The position numbers and the translations under genes were made by a program. A stretch of DNA of 64,000 nucleotides from Candidatus Melainabacteria bacterium. Its GTDB lineage: Bacteria; Cyanobacteriota; Vampirovibrionia; Obscuribacterales; Obscuribacteraceae. Positions 13,259-29,097 of this stretch are shown here, one piece after another (within the stretch, counting starts at the first letter, position 1; the number at the start of each line of letters is the position of its first letter). The notes beneath the pieces were generated by a model. It had not been told where the DNA came from and did not search any database. It was given only the letters and a program-made list of their open reading frames with translations. The stretch spans positions 62,001 to 126,000 of the forward strand of contig JAFKGK010000007.1 in the NCBI GenBank assembly GCA_017307165.1. The letters are read 5' to 3'.

Positions 13259-14692
13259 TTATTCTGCCAGTGCCTGCCCCAAAAAGCCCATCGCCCAGCC
13301 GATCAATTGATTCCAGCCGATCGTCTGCCGCATGCCGACCATGCGATTGTGCTTTTCTTCCCATGTAAGCGAAAGTGCTTGAGCAAAGGCCGCACTGATG
13401 GCGGCAGGATCGGTGGGGTCGACGAGGATGGCTCCCTGCCCCAATTCTTCGGCTGCGCCTGTGGCCTTTGACAGTATCAATACGCCAGACTCGTCGATCC
13501 GCGACGCCACAAATTCTTTTGCAAGCAGATTGAGGCCGTCGCTGAGCGAGTTGATGGACAGTGCAGTCGCTGACTGATACCAGGCCGAGAGCTTGGCGTG
13601 TCCGAGATGCTCTTTGATATGCAGTATGGGCTGCCAGTCGGCATCGCCAAAGCGAGTATTGATGGCCGAGATGCGCTTGTCGACGAGGATCTCGTATTGC
13701 TTGTGCTCCTCTGATGCACCTTGATTGGGTTGCGAGAGCTGTACATAATGAAAGCGTTTGAGCATCTCGGGATGAGTGGCGAGAAAGAGGTCGAGGCCGT
13801 TGAGACGCTCGATGATGCCCTTGGTGTAATCGAGTTTGTCGATGCCGACTATGTATTGCTGGGCGAGCCCATGGGTGCGTGCGAGCGCCTCTGCGTGCGG
13901 TTTGCTGTCCATGGCTAGTTTTTGCCAGTAGCTGGAGTCGACGCCCAGAGGCATGACTGCGACCCTGGTCTGCTTGCGACCGAGTGATACCACTTTTAGT
14001 GCGCGGTCGATCTTTGCCTCGGGAAAAAACGCTTCTACCGTATCGAGAAAATTGCTTGCGTATCTTTCGGTATGAAAGCCGATCAGTTTGTTTTGCAAGA
14101 GAGCCTGCGTCAGCTCCGCACCGATGGGCGACTGCTGCATGACGGCAGCGCTGGGAAAGGGCACGTGCCAAAACTGGCAGAGGATGATGCCTGATTGGGA
14201 GGCGAGCGCAGGAGCTCCCATGGCCAGTTGATAGTCATGCAGCCAGCATAGACTGGGAAAGCTCATCGTGGACGAATTGAGGCACTCACCAGCCACTGCT
14301 TGAGAGAGTTGTTTGAATGATTTCCAGATTTTGAGGTCAAAAGGATACTTGTGCGGATCGCCATGCAATAGAGACCAGAGATAGCCCTGGGCCATGGTCT
14401 TGTAGTCGTCCAAAAGACGGGCCATCAAGCCTGTGGAGAGCTTTGGCGTGTAATAGGAAAACCCCGGCCCTGATCCCTTTTTCCGGGATTCTGCCTGGTT
14501 TTCTGCCTGGTCTTGGGGATGATCGGTCAGGGCAAACCAGTTGACCCTGGCATTTAGTCTTTTGACGACTGGTTCTAGACTGGCAGACATGCCTTGTTTC
14601 ATACCAGGTCCGGCAAACGATACGACATTGACTGCCGGCAAAAATTGATATTGGGCATCTAACAGGTTTGCTGTGGGGGCAGTTGCTGTCAT
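13259..14692 (-). CDS. otsA: GT20 family trehalose-6-phosphate synthase
   Basis: A 477-aa GT20 glycosyltransferase, predicted to make trehalose 6-phosphate from a nucleotide-glucose and glucose 6-phosphate. Motifs, with the usual form in brackets: WLHDYQL at 150-156 (WVHDYHL), FWHVPFP at 174-180 (FLHIPFP), GIDKLDYTKG at 283-292 and DGLNLLAKEF at 385-394. The N-terminus is diverged: the usual Arg/Gly loop near residue 10-25 is not clear and a charged insertion lies at 58-76. No otsB phosphatase is adjacent, so it could instead make a related glycoside. Monocistronic by context. Confidence 0.85.
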   Translation of the reverse strand: MTATAPTANLLDAQYQFLPAVNVVSFAGPGMKQGMSASLEPVVKRLNARVNWFALTDHPQDQAENQAESRKKGSGPGFSYYTPKLSTGLMARLLDDYKTMAQGYLWSLLHGDPHKYPFDLKIWKSFKQLSQAVAGECLNSSTMSFPSLCWLHDYQLAMGAPALASQSGIILCQFWHVPFPSAAVMQQSPIGAELTQALLQNKLIGFHTERYASNFLDTVEAFFPEAKIDRALKVVSLGRKQTRVAVMPLGVDSSYWQKLAMDSKPHAEALARTHGLAQQYIVGIDKLDYTKGIIERLNGLDLFLATHPEMLKRFHYVQLSQPNQGASEEHKQYEILVDKRISAINTRFGDADWQPILHIKEHLGHAKLSAWYQSATALSINSLSDGLNLLAKEFVASRIDESGVLILSKATGAAEELGQGAILVDPTDPAAISAAFAQALSLTWEEKHNRMVGMRQTIGWNQLIGWAMGFLGQALAE

Positions 14693-14739
14693 TAAACGCG
14701 CGTCCTCATGATCGAAAGATTTTGGCGACGGGGTTTCCT

Positions 14740-14761
14740 CTATCTATAGGTTTATAGATAG
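14740..14761. repeat. 9-bp inverted repeat between the hydroxylase and otsA genes
   Basis: A perfect dyad CTATCTATA-GGTT-TATAGATAG. It lies 48 nt upstream of the otsA start and 53 nt beyond the stop of the upstream minus-strand gene. No T-run follows, so an operator is more likely than a terminator. Function unknown. Confidence 0.35.
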
Positions 14762-14814
14762 AGTCTAGGCTATCGCCGCAAGTTTTCAAGAGGAAAATAT
14801 TTAAGCTATAAAAA

Positions 14815-15357
14815 TCAGGCGATCCCTAGGACGCGCATTTCTTCCATTTCGCGTGGGGTCGCTTTGATATTTGTGCCAAGGATAAAATCAGCGAAAGGAA
14901 AGACCACATTGAAATTTTTGTTGGGATGGCGGTGATGCAACCAGTGATACTGGGCGAGCATCTTGTAGATGGGCCAGCGGCTAAATCCGCGTGCCTCGGG
15001 TTTGTGCATCTCTAAATGGATCTTGTTCCAGATCCAGTGGTGCATCGTGACTACGAGGATAAACATCAATCCACCGACCCACGAGACCAGTGATATGACG
15101 ATCGCAAAGGGCAGAGCCTTGATAGGGGCCTTTCTCACCGTCAGCTGGATCTCTTTGTCCTCGCCTGGCGGCACGGGCTCATCGTAAAATTTTTCGGAAT
15201 AATGCTTGTGGTGATCCAGGGCATGAGCCATATAGGTCTTTTTAAAGGCAGGTATGCTCGCTTTATGCATGAGCCTGGCGTGGACCTGATGCTCGATAAA
15301 AGACATCAGTATGCAGGATGCTACGAACCAACCCAGGCAGTAAAAAATTTCCATCAT
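14815..15357 (-). CDS. Fatty acid hydroxylase / sterol desaturase superfamily membrane protein
   Basis: A 180-aa integral membrane protein with the histidine clusters of the di-iron fatty acid hydroxylase superfamily: EHQVHARLMH near residue 22, HALDHHKHY at about 45-53, HLEMH and WLHHRHPNKNFN near the C-terminus. TM segments are at residues 4-22 and about 82-107. Members hydroxylate or desaturate lipids, sterols or carotenoids. The exact substrate is unknown. It lies at the edge of the AT-rich stretch and is the last gene with the GC-rich style of the left part. Confidence 0.85.
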   Translation of the reverse strand: MMEIFYCLGWFVASCILMSFIEHQVHARLMHKASIPAFKKTYMAHALDHHKHYSEKFYDEPVPPGEDKEIQLTVRKAPIKALPFAIVISLVSWVGGLMFILVVTMHHWIWNKIHLEMHKPEARGFSRWPIYKMLAQYHWLHHRHPNKNFNVVFPFADFILGTNIKATPREMEEMRVLGIA

Positions 15358-15749
15358 GATCCCTTGAGTAAGCCAATCTTAAAAGAGACGACTGTCACCA
15401 CAAATAGTGGCAGATCAGAGGCTGTAAAGACATTATACTTTTTAAACAGTTGATCGAAGGCAAGGTTGTGCTACGGGTCGAGCAACGAGCACGATCTCAA
15501 CATTCAATTTTCTCATTCTCCTATCGGTGATAGGAGATGCGGTTGTGAGATTTGCTCTTTCACCTTTTTGTTTGCGTTTGTTAGCGCACTTCTAAGATTT
15601 CAAATTTGCTTGGCAGCGATCGTCGTATGTTCCAAGTTTTGGCTGTTTTCATATTTGGCTGTAAGTGGCTTGAATTGCAGCACCATCTGTTTGTCTTTGT
15701 TAGCACAGATATAAATTGCGCTCCTTTTCTCAATAGTGAAAATAAAGAA
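15358..15749. other. Intergenic region between divergent genes, with inverted repeat
   Basis: About 390 bp with no convincing coding sequence. It marks the change to AT-rich DNA and must hold promoters for the hydroxylase gene (leftward) and the methyltransferase-like gene (rightward). The clearest element is the perfect dyad at 15517-15537. An open frame runs from 15606 into the downstream gene but looks non-coding before 15750. Confidence 0.5.
15517..15537. repeat. 9-bp perfect inverted repeat, operator-like
   Basis: TCTCCTATC-GGT-GATAGGAGA, with a 3-nt spacer. It lies about 210 bp upstream of the methyltransferase-like start and 160 bp upstream of the hydroxylase start. No poly-T follows on either strand, so an operator or RNA hairpin is more likely than a terminator. 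Confidence 0.4.
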
Positions 15750-16511
15750 ATGAATCATTATTTTCCTATCAAGCATCCGTATTGGCAGCTTTATATGTCC
15801 TTGCTGGCTGTGGATTCTTTAGACAGATCCGATGCTAAGCAATTGCTTCGCAGATTAGCCGCAGAGGTCGACTTTTCGCCAGTCGACAGATTGTATCTCG
15901 AGATGCAGATGTGTTCGCCTTGGTTTATTCCTACCAAATGCCATTATTTGTTTTTCGAACGAATGCGCGAAAAATATTGCTATTCAGTCATGCATCCCGA
16001 CACTATCGATTTGCTCAAACAGCTTTCTCCAATTGTCGAGCTTGGTGCTGGCAACGGTTACAATGCCTGGTTGTTAGCACAAGCGGGTGTAGACGTTGTT
16101 GCTTTAGAAGCATACCCTCCTCATGAAGGAAAGAATTGGTTTTTTGGTACAAATATTTTTGGTCTGCCAAAGAAAAACTTCATTAGCTGGACTGATGTAA
16201 TTAAGGGCACTAGTATCGACTTGCTACAGTACCCACGACATAACCTCTTTATCAGTTGGCCGCCTCTCAATGAGATGGCTTTTGATGCCTTGCGCTTTTA
16301 TCGTGGCAATATCGTTATCCTGATTGCCAATCGTGCCAACTGTGGATCACCAAGATTTTATAGAAAATTAGAAAAGGATTGGCACCTTGTATATGCCAAG
16401 GAGACCGGCGGGTGGTCGGGTTTTCAGAATGAACGCCTTGAGATTTATTGCCGAGACAAGCATTTGTTTCTCAGCGAGAGGGCAAATAAATTCGAATTGA
16501 TAAACCCTTAG
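15750..16511 (+). CDS. Putative SAM-dependent methyltransferase
   Basis: A 253-aa protein with a class I methyltransferase motif I, VELGAGNGYNAWLL (about residues 97-110), followed by the acidic end of strand 2 (VALEAYPP). Strand 4 is replaced by LFISWPPLNE and the C-terminus is family-specific. The substrate is unknown. The frame is open from 15606, but the first 48 residues of that frame look non-coding; MNHYFPIKHPYW at 15750 is the preferred start, though its RBS is weak. It is the first gene of the AT-rich stretch and converges with the DUF2490 gene. Confidence 0.65.
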   Translation: MNHYFPIKHPYWQLYMSLLAVDSLDRSDAKQLLRRLAAEVDFSPVDRLYLEMQMCSPWFIPTKCHYLFFERMREKYCYSVMHPDTIDLLKQLSPIVELGAGNGYNAWLLAQAGVDVVALEAYPPHEGKNWFFGTNIFGLPKKNFISWTDVIKGTSIDLLQYPRHNLFISWPPLNEMAFDALRFYRGNIVILIANRANCGSPRFYRKLEKDWHLVYAKETGGWSGFQNERLEIYCRDKHLFLSERANKFELINP

Positions 16512-16528
16512 GATTGACACCTTGGTCG

Positions 16529-17284
16529 TCACAGCATTATGAACATCTGGGTCAGAAGAACGTGGCCTGCTCTATCGTCAGCTTGATCCGATCTGTTGAC
16601 GTATTGAAACTGATAGCCGCATTCTACATTGACTTTTTTACCAATCCTACGACCGATGCCAGCGAAATACCTGTTTTGGTCGATGCCCGCTTGGGGACCA
16701 CCTGGAATAGAATTGAAATTGACAAATAGCTCGTCAAAGCTTGCAAGATAGTAGTTTTTTGTTATTGGTAAAGCAGCTCTCAAGAAATATCGGCCACGAA
16801 CGCTGCAATTGCCGTTAAGGCCCTGGATAAATCGCTCCTCCAGTCTAAATCTATGATTGATCAAGATTTTTTTGCCCAGGCTATGATTGTAGCCAAATTG
16901 TTGGAAGACGCGGTTTTCGTAAACGCTGCTGGGTTGAAAGGTTTTGTTGAATGCATAGCCAGCATATACAGAAGTGTTGTAGCGAAAACGCCTGCCTATT
17001 GCCGTACGCAAGATCAATTGGCCCATGCCGTTGAGGCTGTCTCCTAGACGAGGATTGGCTTCGAAGTACAGGCGGTTATTTTGATCCTTGCTCAATGGCA
17101 TGTCCATGTAAACAGGGGTCCACCATTGGAAAGCATGCTGCAAACCGCCAGCGCTGCTGGCACTACTAACGGTGGTCGGTAGCGTAATCGGCGAGAGATC
17201 TACTGTTTGAGCGCTTGCTTTTTGGTAAGCCCCATTGGATACTGCCAGAGCAAGCAAAATTATTAATCGACCATTTTGGCGCAT
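16529..17284 (-). CDS. DUF2490 family outer-membrane beta-barrel protein
   Basis: A 251-aa protein with a Sec signal peptide (residues 1-25, cleaved after ASA). The mature part is built of alternating beta strands ending LTQMFIML. The DUF2490 hallmarks are present: YENRVFQQFGYN, HRFRLEERFI, SFDELFVNF and DQNRYFAGIGRRIG. Members are predicted outer-membrane barrels of unknown role. It is the distal gene of the minus-strand metal-efflux series, 17 nt after the previous gene. It lacks the long coiled-coil of TolC-type exit ducts and so is unlikely to replace one. Confidence 0.8.
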   Translation of the reverse strand: MRQNGRLIILLALAVSNGAYQKASAQTVDLSPITLPTTVSSASSAGGLQHAFQWWTPVYMDMPLSKDQNNRLYFEANPRLGDSLNGMGQLILRTAIGRRFRYNTSVYAGYAFNKTFQPSSVYENRVFQQFGYNHSLGKKILINHRFRLEERFIQGLNGNCSVRGRYFLRAALPITKNYYLASFDELFVNFNSIPGGPQAGIDQNRYFAGIGRRIGKKVNVECGYQFQYVNRSDQADDRAGHVLLTQMFIML

Positions 17285-17301
17285 TTAAGGTGTTAAAAAA
17301 T

Positions 17302-17661
17302 CTAGAGGTTAGTGGCATCTGGAGTTAGATTGTTGACCGCTAGGTCAAATAGTCCAGATAATAAATTGGTGATACCGCCTAATGGATTTATGTCGCCAAT
17401 GTTTATCATGTTGCCACCAATATCAGTTGGAGACATCCCTTGTGGCGCACTAGCAGCGGTTTGATCGATAGTAAGATTTGGAAGCTTGTCGTTGATGTTG
17501 TTATCGGCTGAGAAAAATTGCCTGGCTGATTTGATATCACCATCAGAGGCAATGCTGGCATTTTTGTCGCCGATGGACATCTCGTCCGAAAGACGGAGCA
17601 TCTCGCCACCGTGCGCGAGGCCTATGCACTCATCAAAACTTTCTGCTGCACCTATGCTCAT
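17302..17661 (-). CDS. Hypothetical protein, acidic, Asn/Asp-rich
   Basis: A 119-aa acidic protein starting at MSIGAAESF, chosen because GGAGG lies six nt upstream; the open frame extends 11 codons further. There is no signal peptide or TM segment. The C-terminal part (IGDINPLGGITNLLSGLFD) may form an amphipathic helix. No family is recognised. It sits between the ribbon-helix-helix-like gene and the DUF2490 gene in the efflux series. Confidence 0.55.
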   Translation of the reverse strand: MSIGAAESFDECIGLAHGGEMLRLSDEMSIGDKNASIASDGDIKSARQFFSADNNINDKLPNLTIDQTAASAPQGMSPTDIGGNMINIGDINPLGGITNLLSGLFDLAVNNLTPDATNL

Positions 17662-17748
17662 TGATGCCTCCTCGGACTTTGCTTGTCTTCTCAAAGATAG
17701 GCGCGGATTTGAATTCTGTCAAAGTAAATCAGCGCTAACATCGTTAAC

Positions 17749-18060
17749 TTAGAATGTCGACTTTTTGATTTTTTCAAAATGCTGCTCGATTTTTCGGTTG
17801 AGATCCTCAACCGTTCTAAGCAGTCTTTCCGACCTTAAAATCATTTGGTGAAGATCGTCTTGCTTGGAAGAGAGATCGTATAACACACCCAATACTTGCG
17901 CTTCTTTATCCGCCAATGTTTCATTGAGGTTTGCTTCTAATGCGAGTTCTATGAGCCTTCTTGCAATAGTGCCTGGGGCGTCGCCACTTGCTTTGCCAAG
18001 CCTGCACAACACTAGGTAACTCGATTCTTCTAGCCGGATTCCGACCATGTGCTTTTTCAT
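17749..18060 (-). CDS. Putative ribbon-helix-helix DNA-binding protein with C-terminal coiled coil
   Basis: A 103-aa protein. Residues 5-15 (MVGIRLEESSY) look like the DNA-contacting beta strand and residues 17-43 like two short helices of a CopG/MetJ-type ribbon-helix-helix domain. Residues 50-98 are heptad-like (LYDLSSKQDDL, LLRTVEDLNRKIEQ), so it probably dimerises. It lies 10 nt downstream of the RND pump gene and could regulate the efflux operon. This is inference from fold pattern and position. Confidence 0.5.
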   Translation of the reverse strand: MKKHMVGIRLEESSYLVLCRLGKASGDAPGTIARRLIELALEANLNETLADKEAQVLGVLYDLSSKQDDLHQMILRSERLLRTVEDLNRKIEQHFEKIKKSTF

Positions 18061-18070
18061 TTTTGATTCC

Positions 18071-21000
18071 TCATTGCCTGCGTTTTATTGGCGCCAGATC
18101 TGCGCCGAAAAGTTTTAGCATCGCTGGTATTACCAAAAGGGTAAGCACTGTTGAGGTCAACATCCCCCCTAAAATAACTATGGCGAGCGGTTGTTCTAAT
18201 TCGCGACCAGCTCCCCCAAGCACAGCTATTGGGAGTACTCCCAATGCTGCAGTCAACGCCGTCATGAGCACTGGACTAAGCCTGTCTAAAGCGCTTGACT
18301 CGATGGCATCATCGAGAGACTTAGAATGAGGTAGCATCTCGTTAAAATGAGAAATGAGCATGATACCGTTGCGAGTCGAAATGCCAAACAATGTGATGAA
18401 ACCGACAAGGGATCCTACGCTGATTACTCCACCAGTAAAGAAAATCGCCCAGACACCCCCAATGAGCGCAAGTGGGAGATTGGCCATGATTAGTATCGCT
18501 GCTCTTAGAGATTTGAAAGCCATGATCAACAGCAAAATCATGCCAACGAGCGCGGCGCCAGAAAGCCAGAGTAGCTGGCGGGTGGCTTCTTCTTGTGCTT
18601 CAAATTGGCCGCCAAATACGATGTAGTACCCATTGGGCAGCTTTATCGCTTTGCCTATTCTTTGTCGAGCCTCGTTTACCACGCCTCCGAGGTCACGACC
18701 AACTACGTTTGCTTGTACGTAAACCCTCCGAGAGATATTTTCGTGACTAATGTTGTTTGGGCTATCTGAAATTTTGATTTCGGCCAGATTTTTCAGGGGG
18801 ATCTTGGTGCCTAGCGGCGTGTCCACTAAAGTATTTTCGATAACGTCAAGGCGATTGCGATACTCTGGCAAAAACCACACATACATGTCAAAAGCTTTTT
18901 GACCTTCGAGGACCTGACTCGTGGCCGTTCCTCTAAAGGCAGCCTGAATTGTTTGTGAAAGGTCCTTGATTGTCAGACCATATCTGGCCGCAACCAATCT
19001 ATCTATGCGAATGGAAATTTGTGGCACCGGTATAATAGGCTCCACATGCACGTCCACAGCACCCTTTACTTGTTTAAACTCGGTCTCGACTTGTCTGGCT
19101 AGTTCATGCAATTTGTCGAGATCAGCGCCGTATATTTTGACTGCAATTGCAGCGTTGACCCCCGAAAGAGCATGATCCATTCGGTGTTGTAAGTATGAGC
19201 CAGAGTCAGAGACTAACCCAGGAACGTGAGCAAACTCGTGACGCAAATGATAGAGGATATCTTTGCGATTGGAATCCTCTGACTTAAGGCGAATGTCGTA
19301 CTCAGAAAAATTACCCGCACCAAAATCTTCTCCTCCTTCTGCACGACCAGCTCTTTGGCTTGCGGCAAGCACCCCATGCGCATTTTCTAAATGTTTAAGT
19401 AGCGACCGACCTGTTTCCATCGTCGTTTGCAAGCTGGTGCCAGGCATAGAGTTTGTGACTACAATAATATTGTTTTCGTCAAACTCGGGTAGAAAAGTTG
19501 ATCCCATAATGGTCAAAGGTGTAAGCGAGATCAGAAAGATGATTGTGCTTGCCCATAAAACCGTTCTGGGATTGGCAATGCTCAAATCTACAAGTGGTTT
19601 GTATGCTGATTTTAACCAGACTACAAAAGATGTTTCTTCGGATGGTAGGTTTTTGAGATTGCGAAGCAACAAATAGCACAAGGCTGGCGTCACCGTCAGA
19701 GCTATACCTAAAGAGCAAAATAAGGAAATCAAATATGCCCAAGCAAGAGGTGCAAAGATTTTGCCTTCGAGGCCGGAGAGTGATAGGACTGGCAAAAATA
19801 CTAAACCCACTATGAAAGTGGCGTAGACGACAGAGCTCCGTACTTCGGCTGACCCTTCATAAACCACTTTCCACGCAGATTTTGGCTTCTCTGCATATTT
19901 GTTTTCTCTCAATCTCCTGTAGACGTTTTCGACATCGATAATGGCATCGTCTACTACTTCGCCTATTGCAATGGCAATACCTCCAAGAGTCATGGTATTG
20001 ATCGTATAGCCCTGCCACTTCATGAAAATGATTGCAGATAGCAGCGAAAGCGGTATGGCAGTGAGAGAAATAAACGCTGTTCTCCAGTTCTGGAGAAATA
20101 CGAACAGGATTATCACCACCAGGACTCCACCCAAAATAACTGCTTCGCTGACATTTTTAACGGCTGTCTCGATAAAGTCAGCCTGGCGAAAAGTGGTGAT
20201 TACTTTGACGTCTGAGGGTAGTCCTGATCTGAGTTCCTGCATGGCACTCTCGAGATCGGTAGTTGTTTTGAGAGTATTTGACCAGGGTTGCTTGAAGACA
20301 GTCAGGACTATCCCTTCATGCCCATCGACGATAGCGTCGCCGATTTTAAACTCAGCCCCGATTTTGACATCTGCGACGTTTTTTAGGTAAACAGGTGTGC
20401 CGTTACGGCTTACAATCACCGAATCAGCAATTTCTTGAGGAGAATTGACTCTCCCTAATCCTCTGACTAGATATTCTTTTTCCGATGTGCGTAAGACTCC
20501 TCCGGCAGCGTTTACATTGCTGCTATTCGCTGCGTTTAGAACCTGAGCGAGTGTTACGTCGTACTGTCTGAGTTTTTCAGGGTTGACCAGGATTTGATAT
20601 TGTTTGACTTCGCCGCCAATCACCACCACGTTTGATACGCCTTGTACGGCAAGAAATCTCATCTTGATCGTCCAGTCGATTAAGCTTCTCAACTCCATAA
20701 GACTGGTTTGTCCAGTCGGATAAAATCCTAGTTTCAAGATGTCGCCAGCAGCACTGGTGATTGGTGCCAGGGTCGGCTCAGGAACGCCCTCTGGTAGTTT
20801 CGATCTGATTGACTGTATTTTTTCTGCGACCAGTTGTCTCGCCGTAAAAATGTTCGTTCCATCTTGAAAAATAACAGTAATAACGGAGAGGCCTATTGTT
20901 GAAATAGAGCGCACGGTTTTGACGTTGGCGGTGCCGTTGAGGCCTACTTCGATGGGTCTTGTGACAAGGCTTTCAACCTCTTCCGGAGCATATCCCGGAG

Positions 21001-21157
21001 ACTCGGTCAGCACCACTACCTGTATTGGTGCAAAGTCCGGAAAAACATCTACCGGCATATTGAATGTCGTGTAGATGCCCAGGATAAACCATATCAAGGC
21101 CAATATATTTACAATCCAGCGATTGTTGATCGACCACTTAATTATTAGGTTGAGCAT
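18071..21157 (-). CDS. RND heavy-metal efflux pump, CusA/CzcA family
   Basis: A 1028-aa inner-membrane HME-RND pump that uses proton influx to drive metal ions outward with a periplasmic adaptor and an outer-membrane duct. It has the usual layout: TM1 at residues 14-30, a large periplasmic loop, TM2-6, a second loop and TM8-12. The TM4 proton-relay segment reads IAIAIGEVVDDAIIDVEN (about residues 393-410). This keeps the Asp and Glu but not the DFG of CzcA-type Zn/Co/Cd pumps. I cannot assign the ion. It overlaps the adaptor gene by 20 nt. No CzcC/TolC-type gene is in the window. Confidence 0.93.
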   Translation of the reverse strand: MLNLIIKWSINNRWIVNILALIWFILGIYTTFNMPVDVFPDFAPIQVVVLTESPGYAPEEVESLVTRPIEVGLNGTANVKTVRSISTIGLSVITVIFQDGTNIFTARQLVAEKIQSIRSKLPEGVPEPTLAPITSAAGDILKLGFYPTGQTSLMELRSLIDWTIKMRFLAVQGVSNVVVIGGEVKQYQILVNPEKLRQYDVTLAQVLNAANSSNVNAAGGVLRTSEKEYLVRGLGRVNSPQEIADSVIVSRNGTPVYLKNVADVKIGAEFKIGDAIVDGHEGIVLTVFKQPWSNTLKTTTDLESAMQELRSGLPSDVKVITTFRQADFIETAVKNVSEAVILGGVLVVIILFVFLQNWRTAFISLTAIPLSLLSAIIFMKWQGYTINTMTLGGIAIAIGEVVDDAIIDVENVYRRLRENKYAEKPKSAWKVVYEGSAEVRSSVVYATFIVGLVFLPVLSLSGLEGKIFAPLAWAYLISLFCSLGIALTVTPALCYLLLRNLKNLPSEETSFVVWLKSAYKPLVDLSIANPRTVLWASTIIFLISLTPLTIMGSTFLPEFDENNIIVVTNSMPGTSLQTTMETGRSLLKHLENAHGVLAASQRAGRAEGGEDFGAGNFSEYDIRLKSEDSNRKDILYHLRHEFAHVPGLVSDSGSYLQHRMDHALSGVNAAIAVKIYGADLDKLHELARQVETEFKQVKGAVDVHVEPIIPVPQISIRIDRLVAARYGLTIKDLSQTIQAAFRGTATSQVLEGQKAFDMYVWFLPEYRNRLDVIENTLVDTPLGTKIPLKNLAEIKISDSPNNISHENISRRVYVQANVVGRDLGGVVNEARQRIGKAIKLPNGYYIVFGGQFEAQEEATRQLLWLSGAALVGMILLLIMAFKSLRAAILIMANLPLALIGGVWAIFFTGGVISVGSLVGFITLFGISTRNGIMLISHFNEMLPHSKSLDDAIESSALDRLSPVLMTALTAALGVLPIAVLGGAGRELEQPLAIVILGGMLTSTVLTLLVIPAMLKLFGADLAPIKRRQ

Positions 21158-22646
21158 GTTCTCTATCTCTGACTATGCGATTGCGTTTTCTCGCCCAAAC
21201 AAATCCAAGTACCAGGGTTAAGGCAAAGACACAGCCTCCAAGAAAAATCATTAGCATAACGGTTGTCGGAGCTGGCTCCTTTTCGGCCTCCTTATTGTGC
21301 GCGGCGTGGTCCTCATGGCTCTCTTTGTCATGCTGAGCTTGAGCCTGTGGTTTCAATAGACTTTGCGCTTTTAATTGTTCTGCACCCTGGGTGACAACGA
21401 TGTCCCCTTCCTTAAGACCTGTGAGAATCGCTACGTCTTGAGCATAACGGCCTCCAATCTGCACCTGAGTCGGCTCAAACTTTCGATCTTTTGGATCGAG
21501 TACGTATGCAAACGGTCTTTCATTCTGGTAAACGATCGAAGTTTCGGGAATACTTATCTGTTTTTTGTTTTCCTTCCCAAAGGCGATCTGCGCAACTACA
21601 AACATTCCTGGGCGTAATGTTGCTTTCTTGTTGTCGACGACTATTCTTACGTGCAGCGTCTTTGTTGCAACGTCAACCACCGATCCTATAGATGATATTT
21701 TTCCCTCCATTAGATCTTTGGATGGAGTTTCGACAACCACATGATCTCCGATGTGGACCTGGGGTATCTGTTCTTGGTAGACATCTACCATCACCCAAAT
21801 CGGATCAAGATTGACTATAGAAAACAGTTTTCGAGTCGGGTCCACTTTTTCGCCGATCGTTACTGCTCTGAGTGTCACATAGCCTGCAAGTGGAGCAATG
21901 ACATTGAGGTCTGCTTTGACATGCTTGCTCTCAATGGCTTTGTAAATTTCCTTATTGCTCAAACCCATTATTCGTAGCTGATCTTTGCTGGTCTGGATCA
22001 GGATTTCTCTTTGGCGATCTAATAACTCCAGCTCCTGTTGCAAGCGCATTTTTAGAGCCTGCAATTTGACCGATGCCGACTCTTCAGCATTTTCGGTTTC
22101 TTGAAATGTCTTTCTGGCGGTTATGCCCTCTGCGAGTAGTTCTTTCTCTCGCTTGTATGCAATTATGCTAAGCTTGAGCTGATTCTCTTGCAATTTGATG
22201 TCATTCTGGTATTGCACTCGAATGCGAGCTTTTTCGGCTTCTATTCTCGTGGTTTCATTGACTAATTGCGCAAGTGCAGTTGCTACTTCTGGACTATAGA
22301 TAGAAGCTAAGATCTGCCCCTTTTTTACCAGATCTCCTTGCTTTACATATACTGATTGCACAACGCCAGAAACTGGAGTATTGACCTCGAAAGAGCGCGT
22401 TTCTGCTGCCTGTACCTCACCGGTGGCTCTGAGAAAACTGCTCATTGTCTTGTTTTCGACTCTCTGGGTTTTAAGACCTATTGAGTCTTTTGAAAGATCG
22501 TCCATGTCCAGCTCGAGAAGTCTAGCGGCTTCATCTGTCGGTGCAAATGCACCACCATCATCACCGTGCGCTAGAGTAGCTAGACCTGGGTATAAGGTCC
22601 AAATGCAAATGATCCATGCTAGGCAAAATTTTGTATGGTTGCGCAT
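21138..22646 (-). CDS. RND efflux periplasmic adaptor, CusB/CzcB (HlyD) family
   Basis: A 502-aa membrane-fusion protein. It has an N-terminal signal/anchor (residues 8-27) and a lipoyl half-motif near VNTPVSGVVQSVYVKQGD. A long alpha-hairpin follows at about 115-215 (LVNETTRIEAEKARIRVQ), then beta-barrel domains. A C-terminal His-rich stretch (QHDKESHEDHAAHNKE) precedes an extra TM helix at about 468-488. The C-terminal TM after a His-rich linker is unusual for CusB/CzcB and would anchor the protein at both ends. It is translationally linked to the pump (20-nt overlap). Confidence 0.92.
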   Translation of the reverse strand: MRNHTKFCLAWIICIWTLYPGLATLAHGDDGGAFAPTDEAARLLELDMDDLSKDSIGLKTQRVENKTMSSFLRATGEVQAAETRSFEVNTPVSGVVQSVYVKQGDLVKKGQILASIYSPEVATALAQLVNETTRIEAEKARIRVQYQNDIKLQENQLKLSIIAYKREKELLAEGITARKTFQETENAEESASVKLQALKMRLQQELELLDRQREILIQTSKDQLRIMGLSNKEIYKAIESKHVKADLNVIAPLAGYVTLRAVTIGEKVDPTRKLFSIVNLDPIWVMVDVYQEQIPQVHIGDHVVVETPSKDLMEGKISSIGSVVDVATKTLHVRIVVDNKKATLRPGMFVVAQIAFGKENKKQISIPETSIVYQNERPFAYVLDPKDRKFEPTQVQIGGRYAQDVAILTGLKEGDIVVTQGAEQLKAQSLLKPQAQAQHDKESHEDHAAHNKEAEKEPAPTTVMLMIFLGGCVFALTLVLGFVWARKRNRIVRDREHAQPNN

Positions 22647-22694
22647 AATAAATCCAAAAAGAAAGGAACGCTGCGAGCGGACATTCTTTTTGGA

Positions 22695-23105
22695 TTAAAT
22701 GAGCAATGAGTTTTTGCGTATACAGACGATCTTGCCAGTCGTTTTATCTGGAGGACCACGAAATGGGGGGCGCGACGCAATTGCTGGGTGGAAGGGCGCA
22801 ACCGTAACGAGTAGAGGCGCATGGCCTGGATCAGCAATAACTTCATCAGGAAATTGTTGAGATCTAGTCTGAGTCAGGCTTGCAGGCAGCTCTCTGCAGC
22901 AATCCGAACAACACGCGTCATGCATGGAAGGAGCCTGATCTCCCGAAAGAAAGCGCTCCGATTGCATCGTCCCTGTGCTTGCAAGTCCGTCAGCTAGCTG
23001 TGCAGTAATACAGCTATCATCGCAAAAGCAGATGTTGCTGACAAATGCCGCCAGCAAAAAACAAATTGCAATAAGCCGAGATACTACTTCTTTCAACTGA
23101 GTCAC
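22695..23105 (-). CDS. Small Cys-rich secreted protein heading the efflux operon (CzcI-like)
   Basis: A 136-aa protein with a hydrophobic N-terminal export signal (residues 9-25) containing CFCDDSC, then MHDACCSDCC, giving a cluster of close cysteines with a His that could bind thiophilic metal ions. The rest is Pro-rich. Small periplasmic metal-sensing or buffering proteins such as CzcI or CnrX commonly precede such pumps, but I see no direct homology. It lies 48 nt upstream of the adaptor gene and is the first gene after the Fur-family box. Confidence 0.55.
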   Translation of the reverse strand: MTQLKEVVSRLIAICFLLAAFVSNICFCDDSCITAQLADGLASTGTMQSERFLSGDQAPSMHDACCSDCCRELPASLTQTRSQQFPDEVIADPGHAPLLVTVAPFHPAIASRPPFRGPPDKTTGKIVCIRKNSLLI

Positions 23106-23178
23106 CGCTACCTTGATGCCATCTTACACAAGCTGGCGATGTTTGCAAAGTCCCTTGTGCAGCTGCTTTACACGCCGC

Positions 23179-23187
23179 AGTATAGCA
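23179..23187 (-). promoter_or_regulatory. Extended -10 promoter of the efflux operon
   Basis: Read on the minus strand the bases are TGCTATACT: a TGn extension plus TATACT (5 of 6 to TATAAT). No good -35 is present 17 nt upstream, as expected of extended -10 promoters. It would give a 5' leader of about 65 nt before the ATG at 23105. The Fur-family palindrome begins three bases upstream. Confidence 0.45.
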
Positions 23188-23189
23188 AT

Positions 23190-23204
23190 TGATAATCATT
23201 ATCA
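23190..23204. promoter_or_regulatory. Perfect 7-1-7 Fur-family (Fur/Zur-type) operator
   Basis: TGATAATCATTATCA is an exact 7-1-7 palindrome matching the consensus TGATAAT-N-ATTATCA used by Fur and by cyanobacterial-type Zur regulators. It occupies the -35 to -10 interval of the predicted minus-strand promoter, the position for repression of the efflux operon. It lies about 217 bp from the rightward bestrophin start. Which Fur-family member binds is not decidable from the site alone. Confidence 0.75.
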
Positions 23205-23420
23205 TTTTCTTTTGGCGCATAGAAAAAGTTTTTTTGCGCTTGCTAACAGGTGGGTAAGTTTAAGCTTGCGTGTGCGCAAATTGGCTCTGGGTGCGGCTTT
23301 TGTTGAGCGGCTTACTGCTTAAGATCTTTCGGTGTAAACATTGTTAGCATAATTAGTCGAGGATTGAATTGCAACTTGGGTGTATTTTGATGATATAGGT
23401 TTCCGAACGCAGTCAAAAAC

Positions 23421-24269
23421 ATGGTGACATTCAAATCTTTATTTAGGCTACTCGTGCCTGGTGGCATGCGCTTGATCTGGTCACTCACAGGCGCGGTGCT
23501 TTACTCATCTCTCGTTTGCTATATAGACAGTCACGCAGTGCCAAGTGCTCAGATTTTCAACGCGAGTGCAGCGCTTTCGATAAGTGTAGTCTTTGGTTTG
23601 CTTTTGATCTTTAGAAATAACAGTGCTTATGAACGCTGGTGGGAAGGGAGGAAACTTTGGGGACAGCTGGTAAATGATTCTCGCAACTTGGCTATCAAAC
23701 TCAAATGTACGGTTGAACCGATAGATAGAGTGGATTTGATTATCGCTTCTAATTTGATGAGCAGCTTTGCCGAATCCCTAAAGACCCACCTCAGACTCGA
23801 GAGATCTGGACATCGCCTAACTCAGCTCGGAATCAGCGATCTGGGGCAGCATGTGCCAATTGCAATTGCGCAAAGGCTATATAGATTGATTGCGATTTTG
23901 CGTCAAAGGGAAAAAATCAGCGACTGGGAGAGATTGCAGTTAGATACTCATGCCAAAGCATTGATGGATATATGCGGTGCCTGCGAACGGATTGTCAAAT
24001 CGCCGATTTCTGCATCTTACAAACTACTTTTGTGGTTTGGTCTCATCCTCAATATCGGGTGCTTGCCCTGGCTTCTCGCTCCTGTCTTTCATTGGCTTGT
24101 GCCACTTATAGTGCTCGTCAGTGGCTATTTTTTGTTTGGGCTGGAGATGCTCGCAGAAGAGGTTGAGAGACCTTTTGACGACCTGCCCAACGATTTGCCT
24201 CTGGATGCGATTTGCCTCACGATAAATACATCAATGATAGAGATTTTGGAGAATGAGTATGGGACATAG
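23421..24269 (+). CDS. Bestrophin-like (UPF0187) membrane channel
   Basis: A 282-aa protein of the bacterial bestrophin/YneE family: RNNSAYERWWEGRKLWGQL (residues 69-87) is the signature segment, with N-terminal TM helices at about 14-35 and 46-67 and a second membrane pair at about 195-235 (LLWFGLILNIG, PVFHWLVPLIVLVS). Bacterial bestrophins form pentameric channels, often cation-selective. The 3' end overlaps the CDF exporter gene by 17 nt, linking the two in expression and suggesting a role in ion or charge balance during metal export (inference). Confidence 0.85.
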   Translation: MVTFKSLFRLLVPGGMRLIWSLTGAVLYSSLVCYIDSHAVPSAQIFNASAALSISVVFGLLLIFRNNSAYERWWEGRKLWGQLVNDSRNLAIKLKCTVEPIDRVDLIIASNLMSSFAESLKTHLRLERSGHRLTQLGISDLGQHVPIAIAQRLYRLIAILRQREKISDWERLQLDTHAKALMDICGACERIVKSPISASYKLLLWFGLILNIGCLPWLLAPVFHWLVPLIVLVSGYFLFGLEMLAEEVERPFDDLPNDLPLDAICLTINTSMIEILENEYGT

Positions 24270-25155
24270 TCACGAGCATAACAATATGGAGACATTGCGT
24301 ACCAAAGGTGCGAAGGCTATGGAGGTCACTTTTTATCTGACCGTTGCTTTTTTGGTTGCAGAGATTGTTGGTGGTTTTTGGACCAAGAGTCTCGCATTGC
24401 TTGCTGACGCCGGCCATATGCTGGGTGATGCCGCAGCGCTTGGTTTGGCCTTAATTGCAATCCGGTTTGCCAAGCGAGCCTCTTCTCCTGAAAAAACCTA
24501 TGGCTATTATCGTAGTGAGATCCTGGCCGCATTTCTCAACTGCTTGTTTTTGCTGCTGATGTCTTGCTTTATCTTGTATGAGGCTGTCGGGCGATTGTGG
24601 AAACCACAGGAAATTATGTCTGGCCCGATGGTGATCATCGCGGTGCTGGGGCTGATTGTCAATCTGATTGGTATCGGACTTTTGACCCGGGTTTCCGGCA
24701 ATTCGCTAAATGTGAAGGCTGCTTATTTTGAGGTGCTGAGTGATCTGCTCGGTTCGATAGCGGTTATAGTGGCCGGGGTTGTGATTGGCTTTACCAATTG
24801 GTATTGGATCGATCCTGTCATCAGCGGCATTATCGGAGTCTTTATATTACCTCGCACCTGGCTATTACTGAGAGAGTGCGTTCATATATTGATGCAAGGG
24901 ACACCGGAACGAATAAAGGTGCAAGCGTTAGAGTCTGAGATCTTGCAAATCACGGGAGTATTAGGCATACACAGCATCCACGTCTGGACGCTTACGCAAG
25001 GGCATGACGTGCTCTCGTGTCATATCTTGGGCTTGCCCGATCAAAATGTGGATGTCTTGCGTTCTAGCATTCAATCAGTTTTGCACGACAAGTTTGATAT
25101 CGACAACTCAACAATCCAAATTGAGTTTGCAAAATGTGAGCAGGCCGCTGCGTGA
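24253..25155 (+). CDS. czcD: Cation diffusion facilitator, CzcD-type metal exporter
   Basis: A 300-aa CDF protein, a proton antiporter exporting Zn, Co, Cd or similar ions from the cytoplasm. The short His-rich start GHSHEHN is typical. TM2 carries LLADAGHMLGDA with the metal-site Asp and His, and TM5 carries YFEVLSDLLGS with the second Asp. The C-terminal cytoplasmic domain has HSIHVWTLTQGHDVLSCH. It overlaps the bestrophin gene. The ion is most likely Zn-like by subfamily, not proven. Confidence 0.93.
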   Translation: MSMGHSHEHNNMETLRTKGAKAMEVTFYLTVAFLVAEIVGGFWTKSLALLADAGHMLGDAAALGLALIAIRFAKRASSPEKTYGYYRSEILAAFLNCLFLLLMSCFILYEAVGRLWKPQEIMSGPMVIIAVLGLIVNLIGIGLLTRVSGNSLNVKAAYFEVLSDLLGSIAVIVAGVVIGFTNWYWIDPVISGIIGVFILPRTWLLLRECVHILMQGTPERIKVQALESEILQITGVLGIHSIHVWTLTQGHDVLSCHILGLPDQNVDVLRSSIQSVLHDKFDIDNSTIQIEFAKCEQAAA

Positions 25156-25256
25156 GCGTATCTTTGCATGTTCGATCAATGATGCTTAGTATTTCGATCT
25201 GCGATTTTATTTGCGGCATTCTTAAGCATTGTCCAAAGTAAGGCAATCGCTGCGAT

Positions 25257-25991
25257 CTACTTGCTGAGAAGATCCAATATGAAGAGAGCTAGAAAACCCA
25301 AAAAGAAACACGCGGTATGAAACGGGGTTTCTTCCTCGGTATGAGCTTCCACGAGTAATTCTTCGGTTACGAGAAACAGCAATGCCGCCAGGCTGAAAGA
25401 TAGAACGATTTCGAGATTGTTGCTGTCTAGTATTCTCAAAGCAGCTGAGCTAGCGATGCTGGCTATGATAAAGATGCTAGAACAGATGCCGACCAAGTAA
25501 AATGTTCTTTTCTTTGAAAGCAATTTGGCTTGCAAGCTTGCGCTTACTGCCAATCCGAGAGCGAACAATTCCACCGATAAGGCTATCGTGAGCATGGTGC
25601 CTATGGGCCCGGTTGTAGCAAACCCAATTCCTAAGAGTAGACCGTCCACTATGATGTCTATGAGAATGCCGAAGAGGAAGCTCACGGGTAAGCGATCGGT
25701 TTTCGTTTGCTCATCTGCGGCTTTTTCTGCTCGCCTACTTAGCGTCCTCAGTGCCAACATCGTAGCTATTCCAAGTGAAAATCCAATGATTATCTGGATC
25801 GGTGCATGGCGCTTTATGATGTCTGGCAATAGCTCTACTGATACCACCGAAAACACCACTCCTGCGGCGAAATGTAAGATCATGCTGCGAATAGAGTCGT
25901 TGATGGGTTTTATTAGCGTGAGCCCACCCCCTGCCACCATGGCAAAAGTCGGTATTAAGGACCATATGACTATAGGTGCAAATGAGTTCAA
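25257..25991 (-). CDS. ZIP-family metal transporter
   Basis: A 244-aa membrane protein with about eight helices. HFAAGVVFSVVSVELLPD (TM4-like) and ALSVELFALGLAVSAS (TM5-like) hold the family's conserved His and Glu/polar positions, and the loop after TM3 is short with little His. ZIP proteins move zinc or other divalent ions into the cytoplasm, though a few work as exporters. Some usual His ligands are replaced by Glu or Ser, so specificity is uncertain. It converges with the CDF gene across 101 nt. The MgtC gene lies 39 nt upstream on the same strand. Confidence 0.8.
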   Translation of the reverse strand: MNSFAPIVIWSLIPTFAMVAGGGLTLIKPINDSIRSMILHFAAGVVFSVVSVELLPDIIKRHAPIQIIIGFSLGIATMLALRTLSRRAEKAADEQTKTDRLPVSFLFGILIDIIVDGLLLGIGFATTGPIGTMLTIALSVELFALGLAVSASLQAKLLSKKRTFYLVGICSSIFIIASIASSAALRILDSNNLEIVLSFSLAALLFLVTEELLVEAHTEEETPFHTACFFLGFLALFILDLLSK

Positions 25992-26030
25992 GCTAGTGAT
26001 TCTCCGATTTGAGGGCCTGACACAATAAAG

Positions 26031-26480
26031 CTAGTTGTGGTCGTCCGATTTATGATTTTTCTTTGCAATTAGGTTCCAGCCTGGTAGATGGTGAGAGGCG
26101 AGAAGGATAAAAATGATTGCTGCAGTGAGCGTGCCCAGAAGGTACATTCCAAACGCTATGGCGAGACCTACTGCAGCCGTGGACCAAACCGTGGCGGCTG
26201 TGGTCAAGCCGGTCACCTTGCCTTGCTCGCGCATTATTACGCCAGCGCCTAAAAAGCCAACTCCAGATACTACCTGGCCGGCTATTCTTGTATCGACGCC
26301 GCTGGTACCGAGGGCATGTGCCGAAATCAATCCAAAAACACAAGCTCCGAGAGCTACTGCTCCATAGGTGCGGATACCAGCATCCTGGCCGTGTCGTTCG
26401 CGTTCTGCCCCTATAAAGCCACCAAGAACTGCTGCAATCACCGCGCGCAGTGCCATGATGAGTTCGACTTGCCAATCCAT
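26031..26480 (-). CDS. MgtC/SapB family membrane protein, short form
   Basis: A 149-aa four-helix MgtC/SapB protein. GGFIGAERERHGQDAGIRTY (residues 20-39) is the family signature, and GVGFLGAGVIMREQGKVTGL is present too. It lacks the C-terminal ACT-like domain of Salmonella MgtC (about 230 aa), as many SapB-type members do. MgtC affects magnesium and phosphate homeostasis and virulence, partly by inhibiting F-ATPase. A strong GGAGGA lies before the ATG. No Mg-sensing leader could be recognised. Confidence 0.9.
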   Translation of the reverse strand: MDWQVELIMALRAVIAAVLGGFIGAERERHGQDAGIRTYGAVALGACVFGLISAHALGTSGVDTRIAGQVVSGVGFLGAGVIMREQGKVTGLTTAATVWSTAAVGLAIAFGMYLLGTLTAAIIFILLASHHLPGWNLIAKKNHKSDDHN

Positions 26481-26816
26481 TGTTTAATCCTCCACCGATA
26501 TTTAACTTGTGATATGGTTTATGAATATCGAGTCAGATGCAGTTATACTGCAAGTGTCAGTGCCACCACTTTTAGTGCGCGCCCTCTGAGCTTTATCAAT
26601 CATAGGGGAGGTGCACGGTGAAAGCGCTGTTTGTTAGCATTGATTGCGGCAATTTTATGTGGTGGGATTGTTGCTTCAGTTTATTTGATGATGGGATTTG
26701 CGATACCCTCAATGCGGTTTCACCGATGAAACCAAGTTCAGATCCCATGTCAATCTGAGGATTTTTCGGTTTGTCTAGGGTATTTGTCTGTTTGGTTTGG
26801 TGCCCTGCACTATATG
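26481..26816. other. Intergenic region with a small RBS-led open frame
   Basis: 336 bp between two minus-strand genes. The leader for mgtC lies at its left end. On the plus strand a GGGGAGG (26605-26611) precedes a GTG at 26618 (described separately). No promoter or hairpin stands out. Confidence 0.4.
26618..26758 (+). pseudogene. Possible small membrane-protein gene or frameshifted remnant
   Basis: A GTG six nt after a strong GGGGAGG opens a 46-codon frame (VKALFVSIDCGNF...) with no clear features. From 26631 a different frame encodes a strongly hydrophobic run (LLALIAAILCGGIVASVYLM) that would follow VKAL naturally if one or two bases were lost or gained near 26630. This looks like a signal peptide or TM segment disrupted by an indel. 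The whole unit is short and could be chance. Confidence 0.25.
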
Positions 26817-27674
26817 CTACTTTAAGACTTTTCCCTGGAGCAACCATTTTAATTTTGCTGTATCTAGAAGTAAAATCGCGTCAACTTGTTTCCCTGTAGG
26901 ATGCTCCTTGTGTAAAGTCAGGCTTTCAGATATAAGAAATATCTTCTCCTGTTCTTTGAGAATTTCATGCAGGGATAAGGTCTTTCGAGGTAGGTTGCTA
27001 AATTTTCCAATTTTCATGGCCGACTTGTTGTTAGAGCAAGGAGAACCAAGAGCATTATCAATTACTTCGGTATTTCCGAAAGCCCTAACTGTCCCTGTCT
27101 CAAGATCATTTGGGAGAGCTAGCATCGCAGTTGCTCGTACAATTGGAATTAATTGTTGCTTGTAATTTAATTTGATCAGCATAATTTCAAAATGCTTTGT
27201 TTTGCGAGCAAAATGAAAAACACATGTCTGAAACAAGCATGGGTCTTTAGGATCAGATATCGGCCACTTGAATGCAGGTCTGTTTTGAAACGCTTTAATA
27301 AATTCATTTTCCAGGTGCTTTGATAGCTCTTCCGCGTACACGTAAATGCTGTCGTCTAGATCTTGCATCCTCAGATAAGAAGCTGCGCTTTCATTGGCGT
27401 CAAATAAAGGTGATAATTCGAGTGAGGCCGGTGTCGCATTGATGATTTGCGAAAACACTGGTCGGCCTGTGCTTGCAACCGCCGTGCATTGGCCAATTGC
27501 AAGAATTTTGGATGGACCATTGATTTTCCCGCGTATAGAATCTTTCGTAAGTCTATCAGCTACAATCAGCATTCCCTTCTTGCAGGTGGTAGCAGTCACG
27601 AGCGTGCCCGAACACTCACTTATCTGGTGGCCGGAAACTGAGATTAAAGTGATTAGTGATAGAAAGTGCGACAT
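26817..27674 (-). CDS. Proteasome-beta-like Ntn-hydrolase family protein
   Basis: A 285-aa protein. Residues 23-72 read like the start of a 20S proteasome beta/HslV subunit: G23-T24 (nucleophile), D40 in LIVADR and K56 in PSKILAIG. Counting T24 as Thr1, these fall exactly at positions 17 and 33, the catalytic spacing of proteasomal beta subunits, and STG follows near position 46. The first 23 residues could be a propeptide or signal. The C-terminal 200 residues are not recognisable. The frame is open to 27920 but overlaps the neighbour; MSHFLSL at 27674 is chosen. Third gene of a minus-strand trio. Confidence 0.6.
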   Translation of the reverse strand: MSHFLSLITLISVSGHQISECSGTLVTATTCKKGMLIVADRLTKDSIRGKINGPSKILAIGQCTAVASTGRPVFSQIINATPASLELSPLFDANESAASYLRMQDLDDSIYVYAEELSKHLENEFIKAFQNRPAFKWPISDPKDPCLFQTCVFHFARKTKHFEIMLIKLNYKQQLIPIVRATAMLALPNDLETGTVRAFGNTEVIDNALGSPCSNNKSAMKIGKFSNLPRKTLSLHEILKEQEKIFLISESLTLHKEHPTGKQVDAILLLDTAKLKWLLQGKVLK

Positions 27675-27744
27675 TGTCTCACAAATTGTGCTCTGAAATG
27701 ACCATTTGAAAATACTGCTGTTTTTGCGTGTCTCAACGTGAATA

Positions 27745-28101
27745 TTATCGGAAAAGCTCCTGCCAGGTGGCGCTGGACCAATTATTATTGAATCCTGGTT
27801 GACTCGGGCGTCCGTCCCTCCCACCTTTGCCTGGTAGTCCAAACTTGCCAGATTTGCCCGGAACACCCATCTTTCCTGGTAAGCCCGGACCACCGCGTGA
27901 TAATTCGGAAAACAAAACACATTGGCCTTGATGATCTCTTATCCAGCCATCTTTAAGCCATCCTAAATGACGTCCCGGAAAGGAATAAATATCTTCATCA
28001 TTGATATAAGCTAAAGGCTTTCCGTCAAAGCTGAAAATATGTGTGCCATCATCACAATAACAAAGTGGTTTCCCTTTTTTGTCATAATATACAACGTCCA
28101 T
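27745..28101 (-). CDS. 4-fold beta-flower protein with collagen-like Gly-X-Y stretch
   Basis: A 118-aa protein. Residues 1-65 are four short repeats of the type D-G/K-x-x-x-Y/F-x-(D/F)xxGxxxxY (KKGKPLCYCDDGTHIF, FDGKPLAYI, PGRHLGWLKDGWIRD), the pattern of '4-fold beta flower' domains. Residues about 70-99 are ten uninterrupted Gly-X-Y triplets (GGPGLPGKMGVPGKSGKFG...) as in bacterial collagens, then a Trp-containing tail. There is no signal peptide. RBS GGGAGAAG precedes the ATG. It sits 37 nt and 70 nt from two Ntn-hydrolase-like genes, suggesting a common complex. Confidence 0.7.
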   Translation of the reverse strand: MDVVYYDKKGKPLCYCDDGTHIFSFDGKPLAYINDEDIYSFPGRHLGWLKDGWIRDHQGQCVLFSELSRGGPGLPGKMGVPGKSGKFGLPGKGGRDGRPSQPGFNNNWSSATWQELFR

Positions 28102-28138
28102 AACTTCTCCCTTGGGATTTAATTGGAGTTGAGATTTG

Positions 28139-28921
28139 TTAGAATCGCTGCCTTTTGCGAATCGAAGAGAGGGAGACTGTTATCTCCCAGAATGGGCCAT
28201 CTGCCAATAGCTGATCATATTCAACTTTCTCTTTGTGAAGTTCAACTATCTTTTTGCAAATTTTGTAGGGAAAGTCTCGCCAAAATTTTTGCTTTTTCTG
28301 GGAATAATTTAGTGCCGAGAATCTAATCTCAGGCATCAGTTGCGCAAATAGTTGCGGTTGGCCATTTGAATATATCAAGGGCGCGTGCCTTAGCGTTTCA
28401 AAGACCTTTTGTCTGTAAGATGGTCGCTTGTGCAAATCAAAATCACTGTCTCTATTGTCACTGATAGTGTGGAAGGTTTGGCGTTGTGAAACAAACCTAT
28501 GGGATGTTTGATATTCCATTCCATTGTAATTGGTGATTAAAAATAACTCGGGAATCAAGTTTCCGTCTATCTTTTCGAGGCTTGTGAAGTGCAGTCCGAT
28601 ACCCCGTTGTTTCTCCAGGTGGCTTTCTTTTAACAGATAGGTGAGCTCGTCTGCTAAAGAGTCTGCGAAATTGTCCACGCTCATCTTCTCGCGTACGTCC
28701 AATCTAGATATAACTTCTTCGAGCCAGTTTTTTGCATTCCAAGTATCGGTGCCGACTAAGCCCCACCATGATATTGCACCATGAAATTTTGGACAGCTAA
28801 TGATTTTAGCCATTCCAGAGCCTTCTACACGCTCCCTCCTTCCATCTGTTTTTCTGGTTAGTAAAGAGTCAGAGCAATGAATCGATCTGCCGGTTTGAAG
28901 TTGCGCCAAGATTACTGTCAT
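28139..28921 (-). CDS. Ntn-hydrolase-like protein with N-terminal Thr
   Basis: A 260-aa protein starting MTVILAQLQTG. If the initiator Met is removed, Thr2 becomes an N-terminal nucleophile. CSDS places Asp at position 17 from that Thr, and AKII places Lys at about 38, followed by the hydrophobic strand and WWGLVG turn expected of the Ntn/proteasome-like fold. The five-residue excess over Lys33 sits in a charged hairpin (RKTDGRRERVEG). The remainder is not recognisable. First gene of the trio with the collagen-like protein and the second Ntn-like protein. Fold assignment rests on residue spacing only. Confidence 0.55.
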   Translation of the reverse strand: MTVILAQLQTGRSIHCSDSLLTRKTDGRRERVEGSGMAKIISCPKFHGAISWWGLVGTDTWNAKNWLEEVISRLDVREKMSVDNFADSLADELTYLLKESHLEKQRGIGLHFTSLEKIDGNLIPELFLITNYNGMEYQTSHRFVSQRQTFHTISDNRDSDFDLHKRPSYRQKVFETLRHAPLIYSNGQPQLFAQLMPEIRFSALNYSQKKQKFWRDFPYKICKKIVELHKEKVEYDQLLADGPFWEITVSLSSIRKRQRF

Positions 28922-29097
28922 TAGGCTTCTCCATACATGGGCAAATGCTGCATTGTTGGTGTCTTCGAGTATGAACTAGCATACTTTAGAGCGGTTCATA
29001 TTCTAGGTCTCTATGTGGGGAGTGTCTAACAGCTTTAACCATTTCCGTGCTTCGGTTTCAATTTGAGTTCACAATTTCAGATGTCTATTTCCATAAG

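Follow-up and report, generated by a model that had tools for sequence, protein, structure and literature searches.

Two proteins that carry the active-site residues of proteasome beta subunits, encoded on either side of a third gene, raise a double question: are they genuine kin of the proteasome, and do the three genes constitute a dedicated system? The locus lies in a 64,000-nucleotide stretch of DNA (hereafter the window) and reads, on the minus strand, as gene B (28139..28921; 260 aa), a middle gene (27745..28101; 118 aa) and gene A (26817..27674; 285 aa). The first-pass annotation had taken A and B for proteasome-beta-like Ntn-hydrolases and had proposed a three-gene system in which a collagen-like middle protein could serve as scaffold or substrate. 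The locus is short of that system, yet it is beyond a chance motif. Taken as a whole, the reading that we favour, with a confidence slightly above even, is that A and B are divergent proteasome-beta-like Ntn-hydrolases which probably form one transcription unit with the middle gene, a PF21784 member, on an acquired genomic island, and that they act as ATP-independent accessory hydrolases, A probably being extracytoplasmic.

Protein A carries G23, T24, D40, K56 and G70, which correspond to positions 1/17/33/47 when T24 is counted as Thr1, position 47 being that of the oxyanion glycine in the proteasome. In B, the initiator Met is followed by T2 (Thr1), D18 (Asp17) and K39 (Lys38), giving a 1/17/38 pattern, and G54 is the probable oxyanion glycine. 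The residues are thus exactly those that had been read from the two proteins initially (G23-T24/D40/K56 as Thr1/Asp17/Lys33 in A, Thr2/Asp18/Lys39 in B). By itself, the 1/17/33 spacing is weak evidence of kinship. The T/S1-D17-K33 arrangement arises in 2% of shuffles of the A N-terminus and is present in 13 of 394 ORFs, two of these 13 being A-family members; adding G47 cuts the shuffle frequency to 0.1%. The B pattern (M-T/S, D18, K34-40) is found in 6/394 ORFs, all of them members of the B family.

Relatives of A are found in three other same-family genomes (L003, L004 and L023) and relatives of B in six (L006-L011, of which L011 is truncated and L008 ends early), together with a more distant B-like protein of 317 aa (L019, equivalent to L062:7813-8766). 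The four aligned A sequences all have D17 and K33, and each has Thr or Ser at position 1; at position 47, window A, L003 (shifted by one residue) and L023 have Gly, and L004 has Asn. Among the B sequences, M1, T2, D18, S19, K39, G48 and G54 do not vary (7/7). The catalytic positions Thr/Ser1, Asp17 and Lys33-38 are therefore kept in every A and B sequence (4/4 and 7/7) at 19-36% identity.

The AlphaFold2 models of A and B, predicted from 4-7 sequences, both display the alpha-beta-beta-alpha fold and match 20S proteasome subunits with a Foldseek probability of 1.00. The B model (7 alignment rows, pLDDT 76, pTM 0.79) returned 190 PDB matches at E<=1e-3, the best 50 of which are all proteasome entries; the A model, of moderate confidence only (4 alignment rows, pLDDT 64, pTM 0.70, residues 187-238 unreliable), returned 487 at the same threshold, the best 50 of which are all proteasome or Anbu. 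TM-scores are modest (about 0.4-0.6) and the rmsd is large, as expected from such shallow alignments. Searches with A and B themselves against Pfam, NCBIfam, PADLOC and, as single sequences, the PDB gave nothing useful, so that family profiles were needed. With the A-family profile, 71 different PDB sequences score E<=1; the best 60 of them are all proteasome subunits, and the top match (E=4.5e-5) is aligned in register from Thr1 to position 48. PF00227, the 20S proteasome model, touches two A relatives (E=6e-4 and 0.007); the A relative L043 scores 21.2 bits, below the cut-off of 22.4. The B-family profile found no proteasome match among PDB sequences, and the case for B leans more on fold and conserved residues. 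Compared with a third proteasome-like family, the A and B profiles align with E=2e-5 and E=6.6e-4, respectively, both from Thr1; compared with each other, they give E=0.0024 and a probability of 12%. Homologue conservation, fold and profile matches to proteasome subunits together settle the kinship, and the initial assignment of A and B is confirmed; the outcomes that would have refuted it, a different predicted fold or loss of the Thr, Asp or Lys among homologues, were looked for and not seen. Both proteins belong, as divergent members, to the proteasome-like (Ntn-hydrolase) family, membership being close to certain for A and very probable for B.

The third proteasome-like family (MTILVAVKKNGRVFLGADRITTFG...) comprises proteins of about 230-310 aa with T1/D17/K35, mostly recognised by PF00227 (L034-L041, L044-L048, L050 and L052). 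About one in three same-family genomes carries it, frequently next to the gene of a conserved secreted protein, and the window genome is without it. Two single PF00227-type proteins of 276 and 275 aa (L033 and L042) are distinct from this conserved family.

The middle gene encodes a four-fold beta-flower protein. It matches PF21784 over residues 5-117 with E=7.8e-32 and 110.5 bits (cut-off 25); the collagen model PF01391 reaches 19.3 bits, below its cut-off of 27.2, and the SclB model is likewise below cut-off. What survives of its description as collagen-like is a tail of ten G-X-Y triplets (27805..27894, minus strand). With a PF21784 domain and so short a tail, the idea of a collagen-like scaffold or substrate loses its basis, and we have dropped it. 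Beta-flowers were described, without an assigned function, by Durairaj et al. 2023 (PMC10584680), and they structurally resemble Tubby C-terminal domains, for which phosphoinositide binding or scramblase activity is known (PMC10584680). The middle gene is like these proteins over its matched residues and differs from other PF21784 genes in sitting between two Ntn-hydrolase genes; the neighbourhoods of two plasmid PF21784 relatives contain no annotated proteasome-like gene.

Gaps of 37 nt between B and the middle gene and of 70 nt between the middle gene and A, together with ribosome-binding-site-like sequences (GGAG, AAGGGAG and a weak GTGAG), fit co-transcription, and B, the beta-flower gene and A are probably one transcription unit; a scan of the locus for promoters and terminators gave hits at chance level only. 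Among 50 same-family genomes searched, the order of the trio is present in the window genome only, and a conserved trio is therefore rejected. A and B co-occur in two other genomes (G017 and G032), on different contigs there, and no more than 1-2 further genomes of the family contain PF21784; the inference of a three-gene system is not supported by this survey. Neither family was found outside the window genome in about 380 genomes of the phylum. Searches of viral contigs, plasmids and phages revealed no A or B relative, the B queries for viruses and plasmids being alignment A3 and the L009 relative, and phage records, where PPH, AAH, CPH, PMI-4 and DAH are reported, held no A or B match. A contig scan seeded with alignment A3 returned two contigs, both from genomes already found. 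The observation that no hslU, alpha subunit or ATPase partner lies nearby holds: none adjoins the trio, there is no hslU among the window genes and no NCBIfam match to HslV. PF00227 has no match in the whole genome, A and B themselves falling below its curated cut-off, so that neither HslV nor a 20S subunit can be recognised in it.

Three features that the first-pass annotation had missed bear on the possible role of these proteins: possible export of family A, a genomic island, and a defence-island context of the relatives. Family A is the more unusual of the two families. By hydropathy, a signal-peptide-like segment precedes Thr/Ser1 in three of its four members (window A, L004 and L023). 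The start of window A, a 23-residue segment ahead of Thr1 (27606..27674, minus strand), reads MSHFLSLITLISVSGHQISECSG|T, with a hydropathy of 2.2 across 11 residues; its hydrophobic segment is short and has no basic residue. That of L004, placed before GG|T, is longer and stronger. L023 (L023:295-1335; S1/D17/K33/G47) has a lysine-bearing hydrophobic segment before G|S and is the one A member with a membrane anchor: a transmembrane helix at its C-terminus ends in a basic tail and, by the positive-inside rule, would leave the catalytic domain outside. L003 can be read as a Met-Ser start without a hydrophobic segment and may have none. Judged from their N-termini, these proteins suggest that family A is an exported proteasome-like enzyme. 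Neither B nor the beta-flower protein has a signal-peptide-like N-terminus, so the three proteins may not share a compartment. The survey of proteasome homologues published in 2021 (PMC8665760) makes no mention of export or membrane segments, and we found no literature on proteasome-like proteins with signal peptides or in defence islands.

The trio occupies the right end of a low-GC island of ~14 kb (14693..29097, ends approximate), delimited by its GC profile, the flanks of relatives and gene content. GC is 0.43-0.47 within it (about 14.7-29.1 kb) vs mostly 0.52-0.58 in the flanks; the genes bordering the island are the one at 13259-14692 and rimM. A homologue of the former directly adjoins rimM in three relatives (L083, L084 and L086); L085 has two other genes in between, and L082 has a different neighbour. 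Low GC and the adjacency of the flanking genes in relatives identify the segment as an insertion, and the island was probably acquired horizontally. The remainder of the island (14693-26500) is a metal-transport cluster: besides a cation efflux protein, a ZIP transporter, a bestrophin and MgtC, it encodes what by eye is an RND-type efflux pump; ten other island proteins gave no match to PADLOC models.

The neighbourhoods of several relatives contain defence genes. In L054 (L054:3999-8523), a complete Lamassu operon (LmuA-LmuC-LmuB; ABC-3C) is followed, 54 nt on and in the same direction, by an A gene with a signal-peptide-like start, as if by a fourth gene of its own; AbiE genes lie beyond. 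The B relative in L060 adjoins PDC-S18, SIR2 and DSR1 proteins, and a truncated B remnant in L061 (about 8260-8700) has AbiE genes on one side and a Wadjet JetABCD cluster on the other. Other B relatives are near relaxase genes (L056 and L059) or DUF4365 proteins (L057 and L058). Ten A/B loci (129 proteins) gave matches to 79 PADLOC models at E<=1e-20 vs 4 in ten control loci (128 proteins); these models overlap heavily, one protein being able to match many, and the control loci come from three genomes and are not matched for mobile DNA. Among the matches listed, 25 of the 79, those that could be assigned to a locus are mainly in L054, L060 and L061. This context is a lead, not proof. The DUF4365-containing proteins downstream of the B genes are related to one another (L057:9865-11490 and L058:9007-10995) and possibly represent a partner of B. 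In L062, the distant B-like gene directly follows a 329-aa gene without assigned function, and transfer-like genes are on the same DNA.

Based on the above data, we propose that A and B are each most likely an ATP-independent threonine hydrolase (peptidase or amidase) that would operate without a dedicated unfoldase. For B, methionine aminopeptidase would bare Thr1 in the cytosol. For A, Thr1 would be freed once a signal peptide or short prosegment is removed after Gly(-1), and the enzyme would probably work outside the cytoplasm. Both proteins would be accessory, most plausibly serving in stress or in phage/plasmid conflict rather than in housekeeping proteolysis. A more specific scenario, which we consider doubtful though worth stating, is that A is exported, and sometimes membrane-anchored, with its nucleophile bared by signal-peptide removal, and that it has been recruited with B into the mobile conflict (anti-phage/anti-plasmid) islands of Melainabacteria. 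If this were true, it would constitute extracytoplasmic proteasome-type hydrolysis, which the surveys of proteasome homologues consulted here do not mention.

Other explanations must be weighed against this proposal. That the residue spacing is fortuitous and A and B are unrelated to proteasomes could be argued from the occurrence of 1/17/33 alone in 2-3% of sequences and from the failure of both window proteins to match Pfam or NCBIfam, but fold search, family profile and conservation concur against it; we reject it on fold and conservation and leave it a negligible probability. The trio might instead be a single dedicated machine, in which A and B assemble and the beta-flower protein acts as adaptor, scaffold or substrate. 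Three adjacent genes on one strand, with short gaps and a start site for each, are what such a machine would predict; however, the trio recurs nowhere else in the 50 same-family genomes, A and B are unlinked elsewhere, hardly any other genome of the family has PF21784, and A looks exported whereas B and the beta-flower protein do not, which makes this arrangement unlikely.

The remaining alternatives accept the kinship and dispute the chemistry. A and B could be pseudo-enzymes, or structural or binding proteins that retain the fold without catalysis, as proteasome alpha subunits do. The Asn at position 47 of L004 and the lack of any recorded activity for A or B would agree with this, but the retention of Thr/Ser1, Asp17 and Lys throughout both families at 19-36% identity is hard to explain otherwise than by catalysis, and we give the non-catalytic alternative a slim chance. 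The two proteins could also be highly specific transferases or ligases rather than proteases, in the manner of archaeal connectase, which is homologous to the proteasome but is a monomer and works as a ligase (PMC8665760). The absence of an ATPase or ring partner at the locus would suit such an activity; nevertheless, both models keep the two helices missing in connectase (63-75 and 82-100 in B, 70-79 and 87-106 in A), no substrate motif can be cited, and we regard a ligase function as distinctly improbable. ATP-independent hydrolysis remains our preferred reading. Two proteasome-like families below Pfam detection, mobile and accessory, one of them apparently exported, would widen the known places and roles of the fold, and relatives beside Lamassu, Wadjet, AbiE and DSR1 make a testable question of whether proteasome-type hydrolases take part in bacterial conflict.

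To our knowledge, the proteasome homologues described so far are all cytosolic; they form barrels or rings or remain monomers, and an ATPase may or may not accompany them. With the 20S beta subunit (PF00227), A and B share the predicted fold and Thr1/Asp17, and A also Lys33 and Gly47; they depart from it in the Lys of B, which is at 38, in a longer C-terminal half, in an identity of only 10-16% in structural alignments, in profile scores below the Pfam cut-off, and in the absence of an alpha subunit or ATPase gene with them. HslV, Anbu, BPH and connectase are prokaryotic relatives of the proteasome that, as A and B, stand alone or are of simpler make. The Foldseek matches listed for A (best 50 of 487) include Anbu, whereas none of the four is among the best 60 of 71 sequence matches of the A profile; A and B also differ from HslV in having no HslU gene beside them, and from all four in being carried as accessory, mobile genes. 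Fuchs, Alva and Lupas 2021 described 22 uncharacterised proteasome-like families, with subfamily names such as WPH, PMI, DAH and FC, found their gene context uninformative, and stated that, apart from proteasome beta and HslV, no homologue has a propeptide (PMC8665760). By description, A and B otherwise resemble its 22 families, being likewise divergent and narrowly distributed, keeping the catalytic residues and doing without an AAA+ partner.
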